A stretch of 32,903 bases of DNA, from the NCBI GenBank assembly GCA_963575655.1, contig CAUYTY010000196.1:1-32903 (forward strand), written 5' to 3'. The position numbers were made by a program, and so were the translations under genes. Origin of the DNA: Gammaproteobacteria bacterium. GTDB lineage: Bacteria > Pseudomonadota > Gammaproteobacteria > CAIRSR01. Below, piece by piece: positions 15,591 through 29,086 of this stretch. Positions within the stretch are counted from its first letter, which is position 1, and every line of letters begins with the position of its first letter. Under the pieces are notes generated by a model. The model was not told the origin of the DNA. It saw only the letters and a program-made list of their open reading frames with translations, and ran no database searches.

Positions 15591-15759
15591 TAACCCAAGT
15601 TGCTACCTATGCGGTGAGAAACGAAAAAGCCCCTCTCCCTCCGGGAGAAGGGTTGGGTGAGGGCGGAAATTTGTTGATTTGTCAGCATCACGTCCTCACC
15701 CCCGGTCCCTCTCTCGGGGGGAAAGGGGAGAAAAGCACGCTAGGTAGCAGCTTGAGTTA
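15591..15759. mobile_element. MITE-like element with 19-bp terminal inverted repeats
   Basis: TAACCCAAGTTGCTACCTA (15591-15609) and TAGGTAGCAGCTTGAGTTA (15741-15759) are terminal inverted repeats matching at 17 of 19 positions. The interior holds GC-rich paired blocks (CCCCTCTCCC ... GGGAGAAGGG and their mirror). No coding capacity is credible. The same terminal sequence bounds the element at 27131-27279, so this is a mobile family. Both ends begin or end with TA, as expected for a TA-duplicating mechanism. It lies between gyrA and serC, ending 36 bases before the serC start; the rest of the 388-base gyrA-serC gap (15408-15795) shows nothing else. Confidence 0.75.
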
Positions 15760-18437: not shown

Positions 18438-19523
18438 ATGAACGAAGACGCCCAACTACTGGAGATTCGTTCTCGAATCGACACGATCGACGAACGCCTT
18501 CAGGCCTTAATTAGCGAACGAGCCACCTGTGCGCAGGAAGTGGCGCGCATTAAACGTGCCACGGGGACGCTCACCGACTTCTACCGTCCTGAGCGGGAGG
18601 CGGAGATCCTGCGGCGGGTGATGGCTCGAAACACCGGTCCTCTTTCGTCCGAGGAGATGGCGCGACTATTTCGGGAGGTGATGTCGGCCTGCCTGGCGCT
18701 CCAACATCCCAAAAAGATTGCCTTTCTGGGTCCGGTTGGGACTTTTACCCAGGCGGCCGCCCTGAAACACTTCGGTCATTCGGTGCTTACCGTACCGCTG
18801 GGGGCAATTGATGAGGTCTTCCGGGAAGTAGAATCAGGGGAGGCCCATTTCGGGGTGGTACCGGTTGAGAATTCTACGGAAGGAGTTATTACCCATACTC
18901 AAGATATGTTCCTACGCTCGCCGCTTAAAATCTGTGGCGAGGTGCAATTACGAATCCACCATCAACTCATCGGGGCGATGACGGAGCTTGGTGCGGTACA
19001 ACGTATCTACACCCACCAGCAAACTCTCGCCCAATGTCGAGAATGGTTGGACCGCAATCTCCCCGGCGTGGAACGCCTAGCGGTGAGTAGTAATACCGAA
19101 GGTGTGCGCCGTTCCCAATCAGAGGCCGGATCCGCAGCAATTGCGTCGGTGGCCGCCGCCCAAATCTACCATCTCTCGATCCTGGCCGAAAATATCGAGG
19201 ACGAACCGGATAATACTACCCGTTTCTTGATCATCGGCAACCATGAAAGTGCTCCGAGTGGTGAGGATAAAACTTCGCTATTGGTCTCGGCGCATAATCG
19301 TTCTGGTGCGTTGTACGCATTGCTTGCCCCGTTCGCCCAGCATGAAGTCAGTATGACCCGTATCGAGTCTCGCCCCTCGCGCCAGGGAATATGGGAATAT
19401 GTTTTCTTCATCGACATTGAGGGTCACCAGCGTGATGAGAAAGTAGCGGCAACCCTGGAAGAGGTAGCGCGGGAGGCAAGTTTCCTGAAGGTATTGGGGT
19501 CATATCCACGAGCGGTGCTTTAG
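18438..19523 (+). CDS. pheA: Bifunctional chorismate mutase / prephenate dehydratase (P-protein)
   Basis: This enzyme makes phenylpyruvate from chorismate in two steps and commits carbon to phenylalanine. The N-terminal chorismate mutase spans about residues 1-90, with the conserved RSRIDTIDERLQALISER helix. The prephenate dehydratase domain (about 93-270) begins IAFLGPVGTFTQAA and has the VPVENSTEGVI motif. A C-terminal ACT domain (about 282-361) carries ESRPSRQGIWEY, the usual phenylalanine-binding regulatory signature. The length, 361 aa, is normal. It starts 11 bases after serA and is followed by two non-biosynthetic genes before hisC. Confidence 0.97.
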   Translation: MNEDAQLLEIRSRIDTIDERLQALISERATCAQEVARIKRATGTLTDFYRPEREAEILRRVMARNTGPLSSEEMARLFREVMSACLALQHPKKIAFLGPVGTFTQAAALKHFGHSVLTVPLGAIDEVFREVESGEAHFGVVPVENSTEGVITHTQDMFLRSPLKICGEVQLRIHHQLIGAMTELGAVQRIYTHQQTLAQCREWLDRNLPGVERLAVSSNTEGVRRSQSEAGSAAIASVAAAQIYHLSILAENIEDEPDNTTRFLIIGNHESAPSGEDKTSLLVSAHNRSGALYALLAPFAQHEVSMTRIESRPSRQGIWEYVFFIDIEGHQRDEKVAATLEEVAREASFLKVLGSYPRAVL

Positions 19524-19608: not shown

Positions 19609-20043
19609 ATGAATGCCAACTTGCATGACCAGGACTTCTACGCTTGGACCCAGCAACAACTAGAGATCATGCGTCTGGGCGACCTCTCTAAAGTCGACCT
19701 GGAAAATTGGATGGATGAAATAGAAAGTATGGGGGCAAGCGAACGACGTGAATTGGAAAGTCGCATTATTGTCTTATTGCAACATCTATTGAAGTGGCAA
19801 TTCCAACCAAATCAGCGCTCAGGTGGATGGCTAGGTACCATTGATGAGCAGCGCACCCAACTAGAAATCCTATTACGGCAAAGCCCCTCGCTCAAACGAC
19901 TATACCCGGAGAGTGTAGTACTCGCGTATCCGAAAGCGCGCAGGAAGGCCGCTTGGGAAACCGGTGCTACTCTACAATCTCTTCCAGAATCTTGCCCCTA
20001 TTCGCTCAACGAAATATTAGACGAAGAATTTCTTCCCGATTAA
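19609..20043 (+). CDS. DUF29 family protein
   Basis: This 144-aa protein has the DUF29 pattern: a start with HDQDFYAWTQQQLEIMRLG, a central DLENWMDEIESMGASERRE segment, and an all-helical middle with LLKWQFQP. The function of DUF29 is unknown; the family is common in cyanobacteria and in large-genome sulfur bacteria, often near repeats. The ATG at 19609 is chosen because AAGGA (19599-19603) lies five bases upstream; an ATG at 19591 has no such site. It interrupts the pheA-hisC linkage and is followed by a nested palindromic element, suggesting it arrived as part of an inserted segment. Confidence 0.85.
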   Translation: MNANLHDQDFYAWTQQQLEIMRLGDLSKVDLENWMDEIESMGASERRELESRIIVLLQHLLKWQFQPNQRSGGWLGTIDEQRTQLEILLRQSPSLKRLYPESVVLAYPKARRKAAWETGATLQSLPESCPYSLNEILDEEFLPD

Positions 20044-20060
20044 AGAAGTCGTACTTTTCT

Positions 20061-20324
20061 CCCCTCTCCCTCCGGGAGAGGGGCCGGGGGCGAGGGCGTG
20101 ATGCTGACGAATCAATAAGGAACGAGAATTTTATAATTTGTGCAGTTGTAACCGTCGATGGTGTAGGGTGGGCAACGGCTTTATCGTTGCCCACGCGGAA
20201 TTCGTGTAATCGCGTGGGCAGGCAAAAAGACGCCTGCCCACCCATACAACTATGCACAAGTTAATAAATTACCGTTCCTAAATGCCCGCCCTCACCCCAA
20301 CCCCTCTCCCGGGGAGAGAGGGGC
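20061..20324. repeat. Nested inverted-repeat element between DUF29 and PD-(D/E)XK-like genes
   Basis: This segment folds at three levels. The outer arms hold CCCCTCTCCC / GGGAGAGGGG hairpins at 20061-20083 and 20301-20324. Intermediate arms pair the AAGGAACG region near 20118 with CGTTCCT near 20273. The inner arms contain GGTGGGCAACG / CGTTGCCCAC and TGGGCAGG / CCTGCCCA hairpins (about 20165-20245). The right outer hairpin ends in CTTTT and may act as a terminator. It shares the CCCCTCTCCC motif with the MITE at 15591. It occupies nearly all of the 315-base gap and has no credible gene. Confidence 0.7.
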
Positions 20325-20358
20325 TTTTGTAAACAAACAATCGTAAAGAGAGAGCATT

Positions 20359-21006
20359 ATGAAAGAATTCTCGAAATGGACGATTGAAGAAGTTGAAGAG
20401 TATTTTCACATAACGCCACTCCAAAGCAGTTTGGAATTAACCGCCTGGCAAACCGCTGAAGTTGTTCGTGCCCCCCAAGAGGAGGCGCAATTGTTGAAGC
20501 TATGCCATTCATTGCAACAGCACGTCAACGATTGGAATGAGGAGGAACTGAAATTACATTTCATCAGCCTATTGTTGCATATGGTAAATTATACACACGA
20601 TCAATATCATGTCTTTTTCGAGCGCACACTCTCTGTCAAAATAGACGGGGAGCGTTTACGTGGTGTTGTAGATTGTATTATCGCACAGGGTCGACGTTCA
20701 CCGAAACGTCCATATTTCTGTCTGCATGAATATAAACAGGAACGTCATTCGTCTAATGATCCATTAGGGCAAGTAACCATCGCGATGGTGGCGGCGCAAC
20801 GCTTGAACAACGATGGAAAGCCCGTGCATGGAGCCTATGTCGTCGGTCGTCAATGGTTTTTTCTAGTGTTGCAGGAAACGTCATACGCGCTAAGTCTGGC
20901 CTACGATGCCACTAAAGAAGAAGATTTATATAAAATATTCAGTATGTTGAGGTATATAAAACAACGTATCCAACAAGAATTGAACCTTATTAATACTACG
21001 GGGTGA
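20359..21006 (+). CDS. PD-(D/E)XK nuclease-like protein, unknown
   Basis: This 215-aa protein has no family I can name with certainty. Its core matches the PD-(D/E)XK pattern: Asp105 in RGVVDCIIAQG, then Glu124-x-Lys126 in FCLHEYKQER on the next strand, then Gln138 in DPLGQVTIAM. The helical N-terminal ~75 residues include acidic stretches. Such domains occur in transposon-linked and restriction-like nucleases, but catalytic activity is not shown here. A purine-rich GAGAGAG sits just before the ATG. It is placed between a palindromic element and hisC, so with the DUF29 gene it forms a foreign-looking pair inside the aromatic operon. Confidence 0.65.
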   Translation: MKEFSKWTIEEVEEYFHITPLQSSLELTAWQTAEVVRAPQEEAQLLKLCHSLQQHVNDWNEEELKLHFISLLLHMVNYTHDQYHVFFERTLSVKIDGERLRGVVDCIIAQGRRSPKRPYFCLHEYKQERHSSNDPLGQVTIAMVAAQRLNNDGKPVHGAYVVGRQWFFLVLQETSYALSLAYDATKEEDLYKIFSMLRYIKQRIQQELNLINTTG

Positions 21007-21079: not shown

Positions 21080-22186
21080 ATGCAGGAAAACCTATTTCAG
21101 AACCTTGCCGCACCTGGCGTACGTGGCCTTACCCCTTACCAACCTGGCAAACCCATCGAGGAATTGGAACGGGAATACGGTGTTACCAATGCCGTTAAAC
21201 TTGCTTCCAATGAGAATCCGCTAGGTCCTTCTCCGCTTGCCTTAGCTGCGGCGCGTTCGGCACTTACTGATCTTGCTCGTTATCCCGATGGTGGTGGTTT
21301 TACGCTGCGGAATGCGTTGGCCCTCCGTTTTGGAGTCGAACGAGATTCGATTACGTTAGGCAATGGTTCCAATGATGTCTTGGAATTAGTGGCGCGTGCC
21401 TTGGTAGCTCCTCAGGACGAGGTAATCTATTCGAAGCATGCCTTTGCGGTATATCCGTTGGTGATTCAGGCAATTGGTGCGCGGGGAGTGGTAACCCCAG
21501 CTCGAGATTTCGGGCACGATTTGGCGGCAATGGCGGCGGCGGTGACGCCGCGTACTCGGTTAATCTTCATCGCCAACCCCAATAATCCCACGGGTACCTG
21601 GCTTACTGCTGATGTTTTGGAGGATTTCATTCGAGGATTACCGTCACATGTCATCGTCGTGATTGATGAGGCGTATTGGGAATATGTCATTCACCCCGAT
21701 TATCCCAATGCGTTGGATTGGTTGGGACGTTATCCAAACCTATTGGTGACTCGAACCTTTTCTAAAGCCTATGGACTCGCTGGGCTGCGTGTTGGGTATG
21801 CGGTTTCTCATCCCGCCCTGGCGGATCTTCTCAATCGGGTACGGCAGCCTTTTAACGTTAACAGTATTGCCTTGGCGGCGGCAACGGCGGCCCTAGACGA
21901 TGAAGATCACCTCTCTCGGGCGCGAACGATAAATATGGAGGGGATGGCGGAGATAATTGCGGGCGTTACTGCTTTGGGGTTGAGTTATATCCCATCGGTG
22001 GGTAATTTCGTGGCCGTGGATGTAGGGCGGGCGGCAGGACCGATTTATGAGGCATTATTGCATCAGGGGGTAATTGTGCGCCCCTTGGCCAATTACGAAA
22101 TGCCACGTCACTTGCGAGTAACTATTGGGCTTGCAGCGGAAAATGCCCGTTTTCTCGACGCATTGGCCCGGGTGCTACGCACATGA
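21080..22186 (+). CDS. hisC: Histidinol-phosphate / aromatic aminotransferase
   Basis: This is a class I/II PLP aminotransferase of 368 aa. It has KLASNENPLGPSP near the N-terminus and NPNNPTG at 167-173. DEAYWEY follows Asp196, and the PLP lysine is Lys229 in TFSKAYGLAGLRVGY. The family makes histidinol phosphate; copies next to tyrA often also transaminate prephenate, phenylpyruvate or hydroxyphenylpyruvate, which fits this setting. It overlaps tyrA by four bases (ATGA), so the two are translationally coupled. Confidence 0.93.
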   Translation: MQENLFQNLAAPGVRGLTPYQPGKPIEELEREYGVTNAVKLASNENPLGPSPLALAAARSALTDLARYPDGGGFTLRNALALRFGVERDSITLGNGSNDVLELVARALVAPQDEVIYSKHAFAVYPLVIQAIGARGVVTPARDFGHDLAAMAAAVTPRTRLIFIANPNNPTGTWLTADVLEDFIRGLPSHVIVVIDEAYWEYVIHPDYPNALDWLGRYPNLLVTRTFSKAYGLAGLRVGYAVSHPALADLLNRVRQPFNVNSIALAAATAALDDEDHLSRARTINMEGMAEIIAGVTALGLSYIPSVGNFVAVDVGRAAGPIYEALLHQGVIVRPLANYEMPRHLRVTIGLAAENARFLDALARVLRT

Positions 22187-23890: not shown

Positions 23891-25007
23891 ATGACTCAAA
23901 TTACCCAAGCTCCTACACCTGCGCGCATTGAGGCATTGCGTGTGGAAAACTATCGGGCGCTACGTTCGGTTGAATTCAAGAAGCTGACGCCGTTAACCGC
24001 ACTATTGGGTCCCAATGGCAGCGGGAAATCCACGGTGTTCGATGTATTCGCTTTCTTATCCGAGTGTTTCGAGTCTGGGCTGCGGCGGGCTTGGGATCGT
24101 CGTGGTCGTGCGAAAGAGTTAAAAACACGCGGTGGGGATGGTCCGGTGGTGATAGAAATAAAATATCGTGAACGAGGGAATCTTCCTCTCGTCACCTACC
24201 ATCTGGCCGTTGATGAGAAAAAAGGTTCGCCGGTCGTCGTGGAAGAATGGTTGCAATGGAGGCGCGGCTCAAGTGGAAAACCATTTCGATTCCTTGATTA
24301 CCGTGATGGTCGAGGGCGAGCGGTGAGTGGAGAAAACCCCGATAAACAAGATACGCGCCTAGAAATTCCTCTTAAATCGACAGATTTGATCGCGGTAAAT
24401 GCGCTCGGCCAATTTGCGGATCATCCGAGAGTGGCGGCACTGCGGGATTTCATTACGAGCTGGTATGTGTCCTACTTTTCCGTCGATGACACACGGGGAC
24501 AACCCGAAGCCGGGCCACAGGAACGGCTTTCTCGTACCGGTGATAATCTAGCCAACGTTATTCAGTACCTAGCCGAACAACATCCTGGTCGTCTGGACGA
24601 TATTTTCTCAGTGTTGCGTAAGCGTGTCCCGCAGATAGAGCGGGTGCTCACCGATTCCATGCCTGATGGGCGATTGCTATTGCAAATTAAAGACGCGCCA
24701 TTTGATCATCCGGTCTTGGCGCGTTTTGCCTCGGATGGCACGCTTAAAATGTTGGCCTACCTGGTGTTGCTATATGACCCCAATCCGCCGGCATTCATTG
24801 GTATCGAAGAGCCGGAGAATTTCCTACATCCGCGTCTGTTGCAAGAATTAGCGGAAGAGTGCCGAGCGGCCTCGGAACGTGGACAATTTTTAGTTACGAC
24901 GCACTCACCGTTCTTTATCAATGCGCTACGGCCAGAGGAAGTGCGAGTCTTGTATCGGGACGAGAAAGGTTATACGCAAGCTATGTGCGCTGCCGATATT
25001 CAAGGGG
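23891..25007 (+). pseudogene. AAA (OLD-like) ATPase, 5' part, split by a transposon block
   Basis: This encodes residues 1-372 of an ABC/SMC-type AAA_21 ATPase. Walker [10 protein letters not shown] is at 40-48, a [10 protein letters not shown] signature region follows, and Walker [14 protein letters not shown] has catalytic Glu306/307. The switch His338 lies in [11 protein letters not shown]. The native sequence stops at CAAGGGG (25001-25007). Beyond it the frame reads 14 foreign residues into an IS30 end and stops at 25051. The missing 40-residue C-terminus is found at 28354-28475; joining the two restores 412 codons in frame. The intact gene would overlap the following DUF4276 gene, the usual layout of a two-component ATPase/TOPRIM-like module. 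The truncated protein keeps the ATPase motifs and could still fold. Confidence 0.88.
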
Positions 25008-25012
25008 CGGAT

Positions 25013-25237
25013 TCAACCTTGAAGTGCAACGGGTGGGTTAATCGATTGTAACTCATTATTGAACACTTCAAAAGGAGTTTTGAACCCGAGGCATTTCCGT
25101 GGCCGGTGATTTAGGAAATCCTTTGCCCTCTGGATAAGTTTTTCAGGGATGAATTTAAGACTCATCTTCTTTGGAAAGAACTGGCGGATTAGTCCATTCA
25201 TATTCTCATTGGCGCCACGTTCCCAAGAGGAATATGG
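25013..25237 (-). pseudogene. IS30-family transposase, C-terminal fragment
   Basis: The last ~74 residues of an IS30 transposase remain. They include SSWERGANENMNGLIRQFFP (the region of the third catalytic acidic residue) and LNHRPRKCLGFKTPFEVF. The stop codon lies within the terminal inverted repeat, with PPVALQG as the end, as is typical for this family. The 5' part is missing: an inverted IS1 end abuts it at 25238. Confidence 0.88.
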
Positions 25238-25359
25238 GGTGGTGTTTCAGACCTGGATATTGCGGTAGCCATTCTTCAAACATGGGTATCGGGTGACTTT
25301 CTGCCATAATTTTGAAGTATTATCGTGCGCAACGAGAACTTTACTTGGAAAGAACCTCC
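25238..25359 (+). repeat. Inverted 122-bp copy of the IS1 left end
   Basis: This stretch is an exact inverted copy (by eye) of 26532-26653, the segment from the tip of the IS1 left end to just before the insA start codon. It begins GGTGGTGTTTCAGACC. It makes the whole IS1 cluster 25238-26653 start and end with the same sequence in opposite orientation. Confidence 0.85.
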
Positions 25360-25727
25360 GGTGGTGTTCCAGACCTGGATATGGCCAGTAATGTTCCATA
25401 ATTTAGATATTTTTCAGACTAAGACGCCAAATTCATAGCGATTTATGAAGAGACCAATCACAATATCATGCATTTTCTCAAGTTTGGAGAAGCAAATGGT
25501 TTTCCGGGCAAGCCGTTTGATACGTGTCCGTAACATTAAATGTTTCCTCTCGATTTTTTGAGTATTCTTCTTGCTAATGATTTGTTGTTCGACTGGTAAA
25601 TTCCGTTCATAAGCCCCCCAATCGTCAGTATAAAATCGAGAAATCCCAAACGGCTTGAGGAGTTCTTTTAAGGACAAAAATACCGAATCTTTCCTTTTGC
25701 CAAGCACATACGCAAGAACATTTCCCG
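25360..25727 (-). pseudogene. Partial IS1 copy: right end and insB 3' portion
   Basis: These 368 bases duplicate 25728-26095 in tandem. I see one substitution (AAGCACATA against AAACACATA, giving Leu for Phe in LAYVxGKRKDS). They contain the right terminal repeat (GGTGGTGTTCCAGACC) and code for the C-terminal ~100 residues of InsB (YTDDWGAYERNL, KIERKHLMLRTRIKRLARKT), stop at 25414. There is no start of its own; the open frame continues 40 bases into the neighbouring IS1 end. Confidence 0.85.
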
Positions 25728-25781
25728 GGTGGTGTTCCAGACCTGGATATGGCCAGTAATGTTCCATAATTTAGATATTTT

Positions 25782-26253
25782 TCAGACTAAGACGCCAAAT
25801 TCATAGCGATTTATGAAGAGACCAATCACAATATCATGCATTTTCTCAAGTTTGGAGAAGCAAATGGTTTTCCGGGCAAGCCGTTTGATACGTGTCCGTA
25901 ACATTAAATGTTTCCTCTCGATTTTTTGAGTATTCTTCTTGCTAATGATTTGTTGTTCGACTGGTAAATTCCGTTCATAAGCCCCCCAATCGTCAGTATA
26001 AAATCGAGAAATCCCAAACGGCTTGAGGAGTTCTTTTAAGGACAAAAATACCGAATCTTTCCTTTTGCCAAACACATACGCAAGAACATTTCCCGTAGCA
26101 TGGTCAATAGCATGCCAAAGCCAGCGTTGATTTTCCTTGTTGCCGACATAGCTCCACATTATCATCCACTTCAGCACCTTCAACTTTCTGAATATCAGAA
26201 AGAATGTCATCTGAATTCAGTCTTTCCAGTAGTGACCGATTGACTGGTTCCAT
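25782..26253 (-). pseudogene. insB: IS1 InsB transposase, frameshifted
   Basis: The expected InsB frame starts at the ATG at 26253 (MEPVNRSLLERLNSDD) and runs through KVEGAEVDD. One extra base at about 26158-26162 then shifts the frame just at the first catalytic aspartate. The remainder is in the next frame (MWSYVGNKENQRWLWHAID...) to the stop at 25782, with TDDWGAY and KIERKHL giving the second D and E of the DDE triad. The open frame from 26210 alone would have a non-native N-terminus. Either this copy is inactive, or the shift is programmed, which is not the site known for IS1 (an A6C slip near the insA end). Confidence 0.7.
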
Positions 26254-26530
26254 ATAGGGTTCTTGTTTCTTTTATTTTGCTAATAACCGTCCCTGGACTA
26301 ATTCCCAATACCCGCGCAGTATCACGGATCCCGCTGCCGTTCATTGCCATGTCGATGATCTGCTCCTTGACTTCTGGCAAATACCCCTGGTAGGTATAAT
26401 CTAAAATGAATGTCTTCCTACCACATTCCGGCTTCAGGCAGAGATAGCGTTGTTTTCCAAGTTCCGTCTTGCCGCGTTTAACGACATGATCACATTTACA
26501 GCATGGACACAAAACAGCTCTGTTAGCCAT
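26207..26530 (-). CDS. insA: IS1 InsA (zinc-finger, HTH DNA-binding protein)
   Basis: This 107-aa protein has the InsA layout. A zinc ribbon CPCCKCDHVVKRG ... YLCLKPECGRKTF comes first. A helix-turn-helix follows, including MNGSGIRDTARVLGISPGTV, the part that recognises the IS ends. It starts at ATG 26530; an upstream in-frame ATG at 26566 (MRNENFTWKEPP) is possible but lies within the terminal region. Its 3' end overlaps the InsB reading frame. Confidence 0.85.
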   Translation of the reverse strand: MANRAVLCPCCKCDHVVKRGKTELGKQRYLCLKPECGRKTFILDYTYQGYLPEVKEQIIDMAMNGSGIRDTARVLGISPGTVISKIKETRTLYGTSQSVTTGKTEFR

Positions 26531-26652
26531 TGGAGGTTCTTTCCAAGTAAAGTTCTCGTTGCGCACGATAATACTTCAAAATTATGGCAGAAAGTCACCC
26601 GATACCCATGTTTGAAGAATGGCTACCGCAATATCCAGGTCTGAAACACCAC

Positions 26653-26761
26653 CCACGGTCCCTTGACGCTGCGAGGATTCGTCTGATACAGAAATTAGAG
26701 TACCTCGCTCACTCAACTAACTGTTAATTCAAGAGTTGCACTTCGAGTTTGAATCCGCAAG
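26653..26761 (-). repeat. IS30-type end, first copy of a 109-bp direct repeat
   Basis: These 109 bases are identical by eye to 28242-28350. The last part (26735-26757) is an IS30 terminal inverted repeat (GTTGCACTTCGAGTTTGAAT). The left edge coincides with the IS1 end at 26653. It is followed directly by a truncated transposase frame. Confidence 0.8.
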
Positions 26762-27084
26762 CTAAAATCATCCCATTTCCTGATAATTTGAAGAAGCTCT
26801 TAATGTTGACCACAATCCGCTGCCTTCATTGCAATTCTGAAGACTGCCGTATCTCCAAAACTTATAATACATCCAGCAACGGCAGCAGAAATCTTTATGA
26901 ATGCAATAGCTGTCGGAATGTTTTTTCAGAAACAAAAGGAACATTTATGGAGAATATAAAAAAACCCATAAGCCTGATTGCAAAGGTACTCCAGGCGCGA
27001 AGTGAGGGAATTGGCCTTAACGCTGCCTGCCGACTTTTTGAAATAGCAAAAAATACGTTATTAGAAATTGAAAATAAGAAATAA
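26762..27084 (+). pseudogene. Zinc-ribbon transposase N-terminal fragment
   Basis: About 105 residues remain open from the IS30 end to the stop at 27084. A zinc ribbon (RCLHCNSEDCRI ... YECNSCRNVFSETKGTF) is followed by a helix-turn-helix-like stretch (LQARSEGIGLNAACRLFEIA), the N-terminal domains of IS1-like transposases. The catalytic domain is missing. An internal ATG at 26803 could start a short protein. The open frame upstream of that ATG suggests the 5' end was cut by the IS30 end. Confidence 0.6.
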
Positions 27085-27130
27085 GAATAAGGGAAGACAA
27101 AATCGTAAGCGAGGCCGGAAACGTTCTAAA

Positions 27131-27279
27131 TAATCCAAGTTGCCACCTATTCAAAATTCGGGATCGCATCCAATCGTCCCCCCTCAATCCCCCCGTAAAC
27201 GGGGGGAGGTCTGCGGCCTACTCCTTCCCCGTTTACGGGGAGGGTTGGGGAGGGGGCAAGTAGGTGGCAACTTGGGTTA
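27131..27279. mobile_element. MITE-like element, same family as 15591-15759
   Basis: TAATCCAAGTTGCCACCTA (27131-27149) and TAGGTGGCAACTTGGGTTA (27261-27279) match as inverted repeats at 18 of 19 positions and share their sequence with the element before serC. The interior has two strong hairpins, CCCCCCGTAAACGGGGGG near 27191 and CCCCGTTTACGGGG near 27228. It is non-coding. Confidence 0.8.
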
Positions 27280-27384
27280 ATTAGACCTTATCGGAAACCT
27301 CCTCATCACCCACCACAGTCAATATAAATCATGAGGTTGCGTTGTCCGGCAGAGCTAGGTAGGGGGTTTCCGATAAGGTCTAAT
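27280..27384. mobile_element. 105-bp element with 20-bp perfect inverted ends
   Basis: ATTAGACCTTATCGGAAACC (27280-27299) is the exact reverse complement of 27365-27384, and pairing continues three more bases after one mismatch. The 57-base interior is non-coding. It abuts the IS30 transposase frame at 27385 and truncates it, so it looks like a MITE or a deleted IS whose family I cannot name with confidence (an IS5-type end is possible). Confidence 0.65.
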
Positions 27385-27972
27385 GAGTGTGAGGCGTGAG
27401 CGACGCTCGTTGATGGTCACCAGCGCACCTTGATGGCCAGCGCCGATGACGAGATCAGCCTCCCAGTCGCCCAGACGCTCACGCGTATCAACGATCGCGG
27501 GACGTTGCTCGATGGAGGTCTGATTAGGGATGGTTCCGCGCTGCTCAGTGCTTCCGTGGCGTTTTCGGCGCGGTTTCTGACAACGAAGAGCGAGATACAG
27601 GGTTCCTCCGGTTCGTTGGTCCGCGTATATACGCTGATAAATGCTCTCGTGGCTGACAGTGGGCTTACCATTGGCATCTAAATACCCGGTTATCTGTTCG
27701 GGGCTCCAGTACTCAGCAAGTTTTTCCTCCACGAATGTCCAGGTATCCGTGGAAATCCGAGGTCCATTGGCACAAGCAGCCCCACGCTCCACCGCAAGTG
27801 CTTGTGCTGTAACGGGTTGATAGCCGAGGTCAGTACCATTGCGTGCCAGTTCGCGGCTAATGGTCGACTTGTTTCGGCCTAGTAAGTCGGCGATGCCCCC
27901 AAGGGTGTTACCGGCTTTTTTGAGAATCGAAATTTGGCATCTTTCATCACGAGTGAGATGCGTGTAATTCAT
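27355..27972 (-). pseudogene. IS30-family transposase, N-terminal two-thirds
   Basis: The start is intact: GGAGG lies seven bases before the ATG at 27972. It encodes MNYTHLTRDERCQISILKKAG, the HTH (IADLLGRNKSTISRELARN), SHESIYQRIY and the catalytic start GDWEADLVIG. After residue 196 (SRLTLI) the frame enters the 105-bp element and stops at 27355, so the remaining D and E catalytic residues are missing. It is more GC-rich than the IS30 fragment at 25013 and belongs to a different element. Confidence 0.85.
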
Positions 27973-28100
27973 TTTGTTCCTCCGATGGAATGCATTGTTA
28001 GAAAAGTGGTAGCCCGCTAGATCAAATGATCCATTTTCTCACGGGCAAGGAAAAAGTCTTGAACCATTGATAAGAAAAGTCAAACCCACCCTCGCCGGGT

Positions 28101-28234
28101 GGCAAGGGTGCCGGGGGAAAAAATTCCCGGCACCCCTGCCACAAGCTTATTTTTTATGGTTGCATCAAGGGCTTTCGCGGCATAAACGCGATTGTGTCCT
28201 TGGCACGATAAGGCCGTACCAAGGACACAACCGC
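28101..28234. repeat. Two consecutive strong hairpins
   Basis: GGCAAGGGTGCCGGG (28101-28115) pairs with CCCGGCACCCCTGCC (28126-28140) at 14 of 15 positions, across an A-rich loop. GCGATTGTGTCCTTGG (28188-28203) pairs with CCAAGGACACAACCGC (28219-28234) at 15 of 16. They lie between the IS30 transposase start and the right-hand end of the composite block. No gene is credible here. Confidence 0.7.
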
Positions 28235-28241
28235 ATTTATT

Positions 28242-28350
28242 CCACGGTCCCTTGACGCTGCGAGGATTCGTCTGATACAGAAATTAGAGTACCTCGCTCA
28301 CTCAACTAACTGTTAATTCAAGAGTTGCACTTCGAGTTTGAATCCGCAAG
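28242..28350 (-). repeat. IS30-type right end, second copy of the 109-bp direct repeat
   Basis: It is identical by eye to 26653-26761. Its terminal inverted repeat (28324-28346) forms the right boundary of the composite insertion. The last four bases (CAAG) belong to the 7-bp target duplication, yet CAAG also follows the first copy, so the two copies may derive from each other by recombination. Confidence 0.8.
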
Positions 28351-28475
28351 GGGTTTCCGAATTTATGAAAGCGGGTGCTTCGCTGGGACATCTTTGGTTA
28401 GAGGGGCATTTTGGAATAGGTGATCCACTCGTCAATCACGGTATGCCGTCCTCATTGCGTGGAGGTAAGAAGTGA
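28347..28475 (+). pseudogene. AAA ATPase, 3' part
   Basis: After the duplicated CAAGGGG this stretch continues the ATPase frame for 40 codons (VSEFMKAGASLGHLWLEGHF ... LRGGKK), ending at TGA 28473-28475. SLGxLWxEGHF is the usual C-terminal end of such ATPases next to DUF4276 genes. It has no start codon of its own. The stop overlaps the GTG of the next gene (GTGA). Confidence 0.85.
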
Positions 28476-29086
28476 AAGACGTACACCTGGAAATTTTGGT
28501 TGAGGAGCCGTCCATGGAGGAATTTCTGCGCGCTTTGCTCCCTCGTTTGCTGGGTGATTCCGTCAGTTTTAATGTACACCCGTACCAATGCAAAGACGAT
28601 CTATTGAATAAACTGCCAGCTCGACTGAAAGGTTATAAGAATTGGATCCCGAAGACATGGCGCATTGTGGTGGTCGTAGATCGGGATGATGACGACTGTC
28701 ATGGCCTCAAGCAGAAAATAGAGCAGATGTTTATAGCAGCAGGACTGCAAAGTCGAACGGTGACTATGGTAGCAACTTGGCAAATAGTGAGTCGCATTGC
28801 TATTGATGAATTGGAATCCTGGTATTTCGGAGATTGGGAGGCCGTGCGAACCGCCTATTCTCGTGTCCCCGCAAATCTTTCCGTTCAGGCGAAATATCGT
28901 GATCCAGATGCGATAAAGGGAACTTGGGAAGCTTTTGAGCGTGTGCTTAAGAAAGCAGGTTATTTTAAAGGTGGCCTGCGTAAAATAGAGGTTGCCCGGG
29001 TTTTGGGGGGAAATATGGACCCAGCACGCAATCAATCTCGAAGCTTTCAGGTCTTTCGTGACGCTATTTTGGAAGCCATCTCGTGA
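28472..29086 (+). CDS. DUF4276 family protein (TOPRIM-like)
   Basis: This 204-aa protein matches the DUF4276 pattern. LEILVEEPSMEEFLRALLP gives N-terminal acidic residues Glu11, Glu12 and Glu16. IVVVVDRDDDDC gives Asp70/Asp72, the TOPRIM-like metal site. RIAIDELESWYFGDWEAV is the family's conserved Glu-Trp-Gly-Asp region. It starts with GTG inside the ATPase stop codon; GGAGG (28461-28465) lies six bases upstream. DUF4276 genes commonly follow AAA_21 ATPases, and the pair is reminiscent of OLD-type ATPase/TOPRIM nucleases and of RloAB/AbiL-type systems; the defence role is inferred. This gene is intact, but its partner is broken and its transcription probably now depends on the inserted DNA. 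Confidence 0.82.
   Translation: MKDVHLEILVEEPSMEEFLRALLPRLLGDSVSFNVHPYQCKDDLLNKLPARLKGYKNWIPKTWRIVVVVDRDDDDCHGLKQKIEQMFIAAGLQSRTVTMVATWQIVSRIAIDELESWYFGDWEAVRTAYSRVPANLSVQAKYRDPDAIKGTWEAFERVLKKAGYFKGGLRKIEVARVLGGNMDPARNQSRSFQVFRDAILEAIS

Follow-up and report, generated by a model that had tools for sequence, protein, structure and literature searches.

What separates pheA from hisC in this gammaproteobacterial genome, and do the genes lodged between them belong together? Along the + strand of the window, by which is meant the whole stretch of 32,903 nucleotides analysed, the order is pheA, a DUF29 gene, a nested palindrome, an open reading frame (ORF) of 215 aa, hisC and tyrA, the same layout that a sequence-only reading of this DNA had described. 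That reading had further supposed that the DUF29 gene and the 215-aa gene, the latter with a nuclease-like residue pattern, form a selfish or regulatory pair. The features of the locus, and the evidence on which each is called, are as follows:

18438..19523, + strand: pheA (chorismate mutase / prephenate dehydratase), left flank; Pfam PDT, CM_2 and ACT.
19609..20043, + strand: DUF29 gene, 144 aa, judged a coincidental neighbour; PF01724 at E 5.4e-47, no co-occurrence.
20054..20118, + strand: left part of repeat A, dispersed and MITE-like; own-genome matches, many with the left and right parts contiguous.
20116..20118, no strand: TAA on the left of element B, one copy of its putative target duplication; seen against repeat A where it is uninterrupted.
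20119..20278, no strand: element B, an insertion of 160 bp in repeat A with the ends GGAACG / CGTTCC; missing where repeat A is intact, end recurs elsewhere.
20157..20243, no strand: repeat C, a hairpin-rich core inside element B; 74-81% identical pieces in the own genome (C181, C7, C144).
20279..20281, no strand: TAA on the right of element B, the other copy of that putative duplication; same comparison.
20280..20328, + strand: right part of repeat A, with a terminator-like hairpin at 20301-20323; own-genome matches.
20359..21006, + strand: predicted solitary PD-(D/E)XK nuclease gene, 215 aa (E61, D105, E124, K126, Q138); AlphaFold2 model, fold matches, conservation, PADLOC PDLC01472 and GC content.
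21080..22186, + strand: hisC-like aminotransferase gene, right flank; Pfam Aminotran_1_2, orthologues in relatives.

Purine-rich stretches lie 5' of the starts of both the DUF29 and the nuclease gene, by eye, in keeping with the good starts claimed for them. GC content is 43.1% in the nuclease gene, 47.8% in the DUF29 gene and 51-57% in the biosynthetic genes on either side, and the nuclease gene looks foreign between two genes of amino-acid synthesis. The expectation that pheA and hisC normally adjoin is borne out by comparison with relatives: an orthologue of hisC was found in 19 of 22 relatives searched (at least 51% identity), pheA was the next match upstream in 14 of those 19, and the gap between the two matches measured 11-175 nt in 13 relatives and 381 nt in one. 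In G003, which belongs to the same family as the source but to another genus, the gap is 37 nt. Upstream of hisC in G001, a member of the same genus, lie an OrfB_IS605 gene and repeats, with no pheA found in the 3.7 kb upstream, while in G002, of another genus, the gene before hisC points the opposite way and appears thiL-like by eye. Because these nearest relatives differ, the gap was invaded within the genus, and differently in the two species of it that have been seen.

The palindrome itself is a stack of dispersed repeats and is part of neither the DUF29 nor the nuclease gene. Its outer arms (20061-20089 and 20295-20323) are 29 nt long and 86% complementary, so that the nested palindrome described earlier is real, although it spans 263 bp and not 264. 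At least 90 matching pieces of the region occur in the own genome (40 of the 166 first-look candidates were scored). If element B is taken out with one TAA and its flanks are joined, an ordinary copy of repeat A results; the end of element B recurs at three other places of the own genome (C66, C195 and C250), with no matches in viral contigs, and repeat C recurs there independently of element B at the three places given above. The fold of the palindrome is unusually stable (folding-energy z-score of -11.6, with none of 100 shuffled sequences folding as well), and since the region is a stack of dispersed repeats, this stability needs no function to explain it. Another copy of repeat A lies at 15625-15739 of the window, between gyrA and serC.

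Further mobile DNA is found downstream. At 23891-29086 of the window, transposase genes of the IS1 type and of the HTH_38 type, the latter of which we take to be IS30-like, stand between a gene for an AAA_21 (AbiEii-like) ATPase and one for a DUF4276 protein. AAA_21 ATPase and DUF4276 genes often occur together in defence-like pairs. Within this stretch, at 25414-26210, two adjacent IS1 transposase ORFs are almost identical over a long C-terminal stretch, which gives the appearance of a tandem duplication at the 3' side of the IS1 element.

The DUF29 protein matches PF01724 over model positions 1-138 of 138. A search for literature on DUF29 found none among open-access papers. One reading of the locus is that this gene and the nuclease gene constitute a two-gene selfish or regulatory module, perhaps resembling a toxin-antitoxin pair; the two are adjacent and co-directional in the window, and DUF29 occurs in 18 of the 32 genomes examined, all of which were chosen for holding the nuclease. 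Outside the window, the two were never found together. No DUF29 match occurred at any of 79 nuclease loci (726,380 bases, with up to 5 kb on each side and E values up to 1), whereas the same profile recovered 9 of the 9 DUF29 loci in the own genome, 8 of which had been used to build it; conversely, a profile search found the nuclease at none of the 8 other DUF29 loci of that genome. A recurrent adjacency of the two genes was thus absent from both directions of the survey, an outcome that the sequence-only reading had itself named as refuting the pair. Moreover, the own genome contains 9 DUF29 places and 11-12 nuclease places in 4.2 Mb, and since both families are present there in many copies, an occasional chance neighbour is to be expected; by simple arithmetic from 9 and 12 places, a single chance pair within 1 kb would be approximately a 5% event. 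The proposed module is contradicted by these counts, and we have rejected it as highly improbable. The description "selfish" is still plausible for the nuclease family alone.

The related idea that the pair makes use of operon transcription fares no better. Both neighbours of the nuclease gene were co-directional with it at 36 of 72 copies, versus 126 of 222 control genes (Fisher p 0.34), and a terminator-like hairpin (20301-20323) lies between the DUF29 and nuclease genes, although shuffled sequence yields such sites nearly as often (a mean of 1.5, with two found here); on both grounds, the use of operon transcription is unsupported for this family, which showed no preference for operons. Copies opposing both of their neighbours numbered 15 of 72, and controls 20 of 222. 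Gene calls in these neighbourhoods are rough, since they come from a greedy rule that favours the longest ORF.

What, then, is the 215-aa protein? The AlphaFold2 model (pLDDT 96.7, pTM 0.92) contains the alpha-beta-beta-beta-alpha-beta core of the PD-(D/E)XK superfamily, with D105 and the E124/K126 pair on neighbouring strands and Q138 on the following helix. D105, E124-x-K126 and Q138 have the residue numbers that the sequence-only reading gave them. All 75 homologues have E61, E124, K126 and Q138, and position 105 is D in 69 of them and E in the other 6, in keeping with the D...ExK active site of the superfamily. The nuclease-related fold that had been suspected is therefore confirmed at the level of prediction, with its core and conserved catalytic residues in place. 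The protein is assigned to no Pfam or NCBIfam family. The PADLOC model PDLC01472 (PD_DExK) matches it at E 9.5e-17, and also matches all 75 members of the family alignment. A search of a viral structure library returned weak nuclease matches only (best E 1.8e-5, TM 0.27).

The distribution of the family is scattered and its copy number high. Its profile matched 23 of 25 genomes at E<=1e-5, with up to 66 places per genome; 20 of the 25 were chosen for holding the family, and these figures accordingly describe copy number and not prevalence. The own genome contained 11 profile matches, G001 contained 8, and G002 and G003 contained none. A second and more distant subfamily (alignment A4) accounts for most of the own-genome places. 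Members were found in five phyla (Bacteroidota, Desulfobacterota, Chloroflexota, Ignavibacteriota and Pseudomonadota), and a quick tree of the family mixes them: the phylum labels change 8 times, against a minimum of 4 and a shuffled mean of 22.2, so that the labels cluster without each phylum forming a single clade. Two copies of the own genome fall apart in this tree: the one in the window joins Desulfobacterota and Thiotrichaceae (support 91, not starred), and L002 joins Methylomonas (support 96, starred). Their positions in different clades suggest separate arrivals.

Hosts of the family include giant or filamentous sulfur and cable bacteria, namely Achromatium, Parabeggiatoa, Electronema and Electrothrix. 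As to an expansion of the nuclease family in large bacteria, no mention was found in PMC10580974, and PMC5728499 mentions cas nucleases only. In three cable-bacterium genomes, family members lie near panC- and panD-like genes, by eye (L075, L078 and L079).

Several copies occupy sites that are empty in relatives. In the own genome, an A4-type copy (L176, 1480-2088; G000, contig C22) whose product has only 21% identity to the window protein separates fabH from fabD, and these two genes are tightly spaced in G002 and G003; a further family copy, in Electronema aureum, overlaps aroB by 4 bp at a site unoccupied in three other genomes. Together with pheA-hisC, this makes three gaps with empty counterparts; such sites show gain or loss, not mechanism. 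A homing endonuclease would insert exactly at its own cleavage site and have empty-site alleles, and of these features the empty sites at the three gaps were observed. Comparison of two Ignavibacteria genomes found several copies in synteny (L193/L204, L195/L211 and L196/L212), from which it follows that copies can be long-lived and vertically inherited, and which speaks against rapid movement. The same comparison found no clean boundary of a mobile unit, and the one highly similar, non-syntenic pair sits in a rearranged tandem array.

It is conceivable that the nuclease gene has no mobility of its own and is the passive cargo of repeat- and IS-driven rearrangements, in a genus that collects insertions between the genes of its operons. 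Unrelated inserts do fill the same gaps in G001, where the OrfB_IS605 gene and repeats lie at hisC and a PepSY_2 ORF lies between fabH and fabD, and repeat A adjoins the nuclease gene in the window. The same family is nevertheless dispersed in Bacteroidota, Chloroflexota, Desulfobacterota and Ignavibacteriota, which points to a property of the gene itself, and we regard the role of cargo as unlikely.

Another possibility is that the nuclease is retained for a service to its host, acting as a restriction barrier or as an effector that is CRISPR-associated or works in DNA repair. The strict conservation of the active site speaks for this, as does purifying selection: dN/dS was 0.08, 0.13, 0.17 and 0.20 in four pairs, with values of 0.21 and 0.36 in two distant pairs and saturated dS in two further pairs. 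The PADLOC model is moreover labelled as CRISPR-associated, and two family members (L113 and L124) sit directly beside genes that, by eye, resemble type III-B cmr genes; their proximity is a possible reason for the PADLOC label. Against a host role stand the patchy distribution (a single-sequence query matched 3 of 95 genomes, the own genome included) and the presence of diverged copies by the dozen within single genomes. Nor do most of 77 loci share a partner gene: among their 588 neighbour ORFs, the commonest cluster consisted of further family copies (15 loci) and the next was present at 7 loci. These analyses of 77 loci leave out two of the 79 (L112 and L131) that have no clean ORF. We therefore consider a retained host function improbable here, although purifying selection on the nuclease also fits a useful cellular role.

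Taken together, the observations make it probable, in our judgement, that the 215-aa gene encodes a solitary, horizontally mobile nuclease of the PD-(D/E)XK type, from a many-copy family as yet without a name, that it reached the pheA-hisC gap in this genus, and that the DUF29 gene and the stacked repeats came there independently. To judge from its fold, active site and distribution, the protein would be a metal-dependent DNA endonuclease, and probably a dimeric one. By analogy, its spread could follow the course that Feder and Bujnicki proposed for COG4636, in which rare breaks provoke recombination (PMC551604, in excerpt). Copies so established might then be retained because they are tolerated or mildly useful, and the pheA-hisC gap would be one of many tolerated landing places.

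An unexpected likeness emerged when the window model was compared with structures in the PDB, where two kinds of mammalian mitoribosome chain ranked highest, first chain 5 (or the chain equivalent to it) and then chain s. The former type aligned from residue 1, over 195-201 residues, at Z 15.0-16.4 (16.4 over 199 residues), and the latter at Z 13.9-14.5. We take chain 5 to be mL37 and chain s to be mL65 (PDCD9, PF07147), proteins whose lengths agree with a chain numbering that runs to residues 423 and 433. A model of the distant subfamily, made from its own alignment, gave the same order (mL37-type Z 13.5-14.7, the best over 192 residues; mL65-type 12.8-14.0; the type IIG enzyme BpuSI 12.5), and the predicted structures of both subfamilies thus appear to share the overall fold of mL37 and mL65. 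Identity to these chains over the structural alignments is 6-14%. Sequence profiles do not confirm the link: PF07147 scored above its cut-off in none of 13 nuclease-bearing genomes, the three weak matches to it (E 0.06-0.43) fell at no listed nuclease place, and a profile of the nuclease family found nothing relevant among PDB sequences.

An endonuclease origin of mL37 and mL65 is already known in general, being stated in the review PMC8998825, an excerpt of which describes the two as a pseudo-dimer of repurposed endonucleases; there, their source is called only "repurposed endonucleases", with two Science papers cited. Among the papers listed in searches that joined mL37 or mL65 with a nuclease family, none named a bacterial source in its title or abstract opening. 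What would be new is a candidate bacterial family whose modelled structure also shares the N-terminal part with mL37 and mL65. We suggest, tentatively and as a doubtful but interesting possibility, that mL37 and mL65 were both recruited from this nuclease family, together with its N-terminal extension, a selfish-like bacterial homodimer having given rise to a catalytically dead heterodimer that props up a shrunken rRNA. Another bacterial family, one without a solved structure, could be closer to mL37, since the search ran from the nuclease models to the PDB. If the structural link is true, the family would be a specific bacterial candidate for the ancestry of these two proteins of animal mitoribosomes.

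Comparison with known nuclease systems helps to place the family. Unlike the predicted nuclease, mL37 and mL65 have a structural rather than a catalytic role, in the mitoribosome. The N-terminal nuclease domains of the type IIG enzymes BpuSI and DrdV have the same core (Z 11.1 and 10.6), but the match begins at residue 40 or 41, and in the window the domain stands alone, the other domains of these enzymes being absent. HsdR matches the window model at Z 9.1. Whereas PDLC01472 carries its CRISPR-associated label, the window copy sits among genes of amino-acid synthesis; of those window ORFs that were scanned, a part of the total, none was recognised as a cas gene, and cmr-like genes were seen by eye beside 2 of 77 loci. 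The closest parallel in behaviour is Uma2/COG4636 (DUF820), which excerpts of PMC551604 and PMC2701414 describe as solitary PD-(D/E)XK genes of many copies, horizontally transferred, found in tandem cassettes, and with no fixed partner. The window family is likewise solitary, dispersed in many copies, horizontally transferred and without a partner; the likeness is one of behaviour, not of membership, and the Uma2-like structure TT1808 (1wdj) matches the window model at Z 7.0. No Uma2 Pfam model matches the window protein (E<=1) or any of the 75 members (E<=0.1), and the catalytic lysine, which has migrated in Uma2 (PMC551604, in excerpt), is in the canonical ExK position in 75 of 75 members of the window family. 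The window gene is thus a member of a little-described, Uma2-like family, a second many-copy family of solitary nucleases that is present in several phyla and has no Pfam match above threshold.
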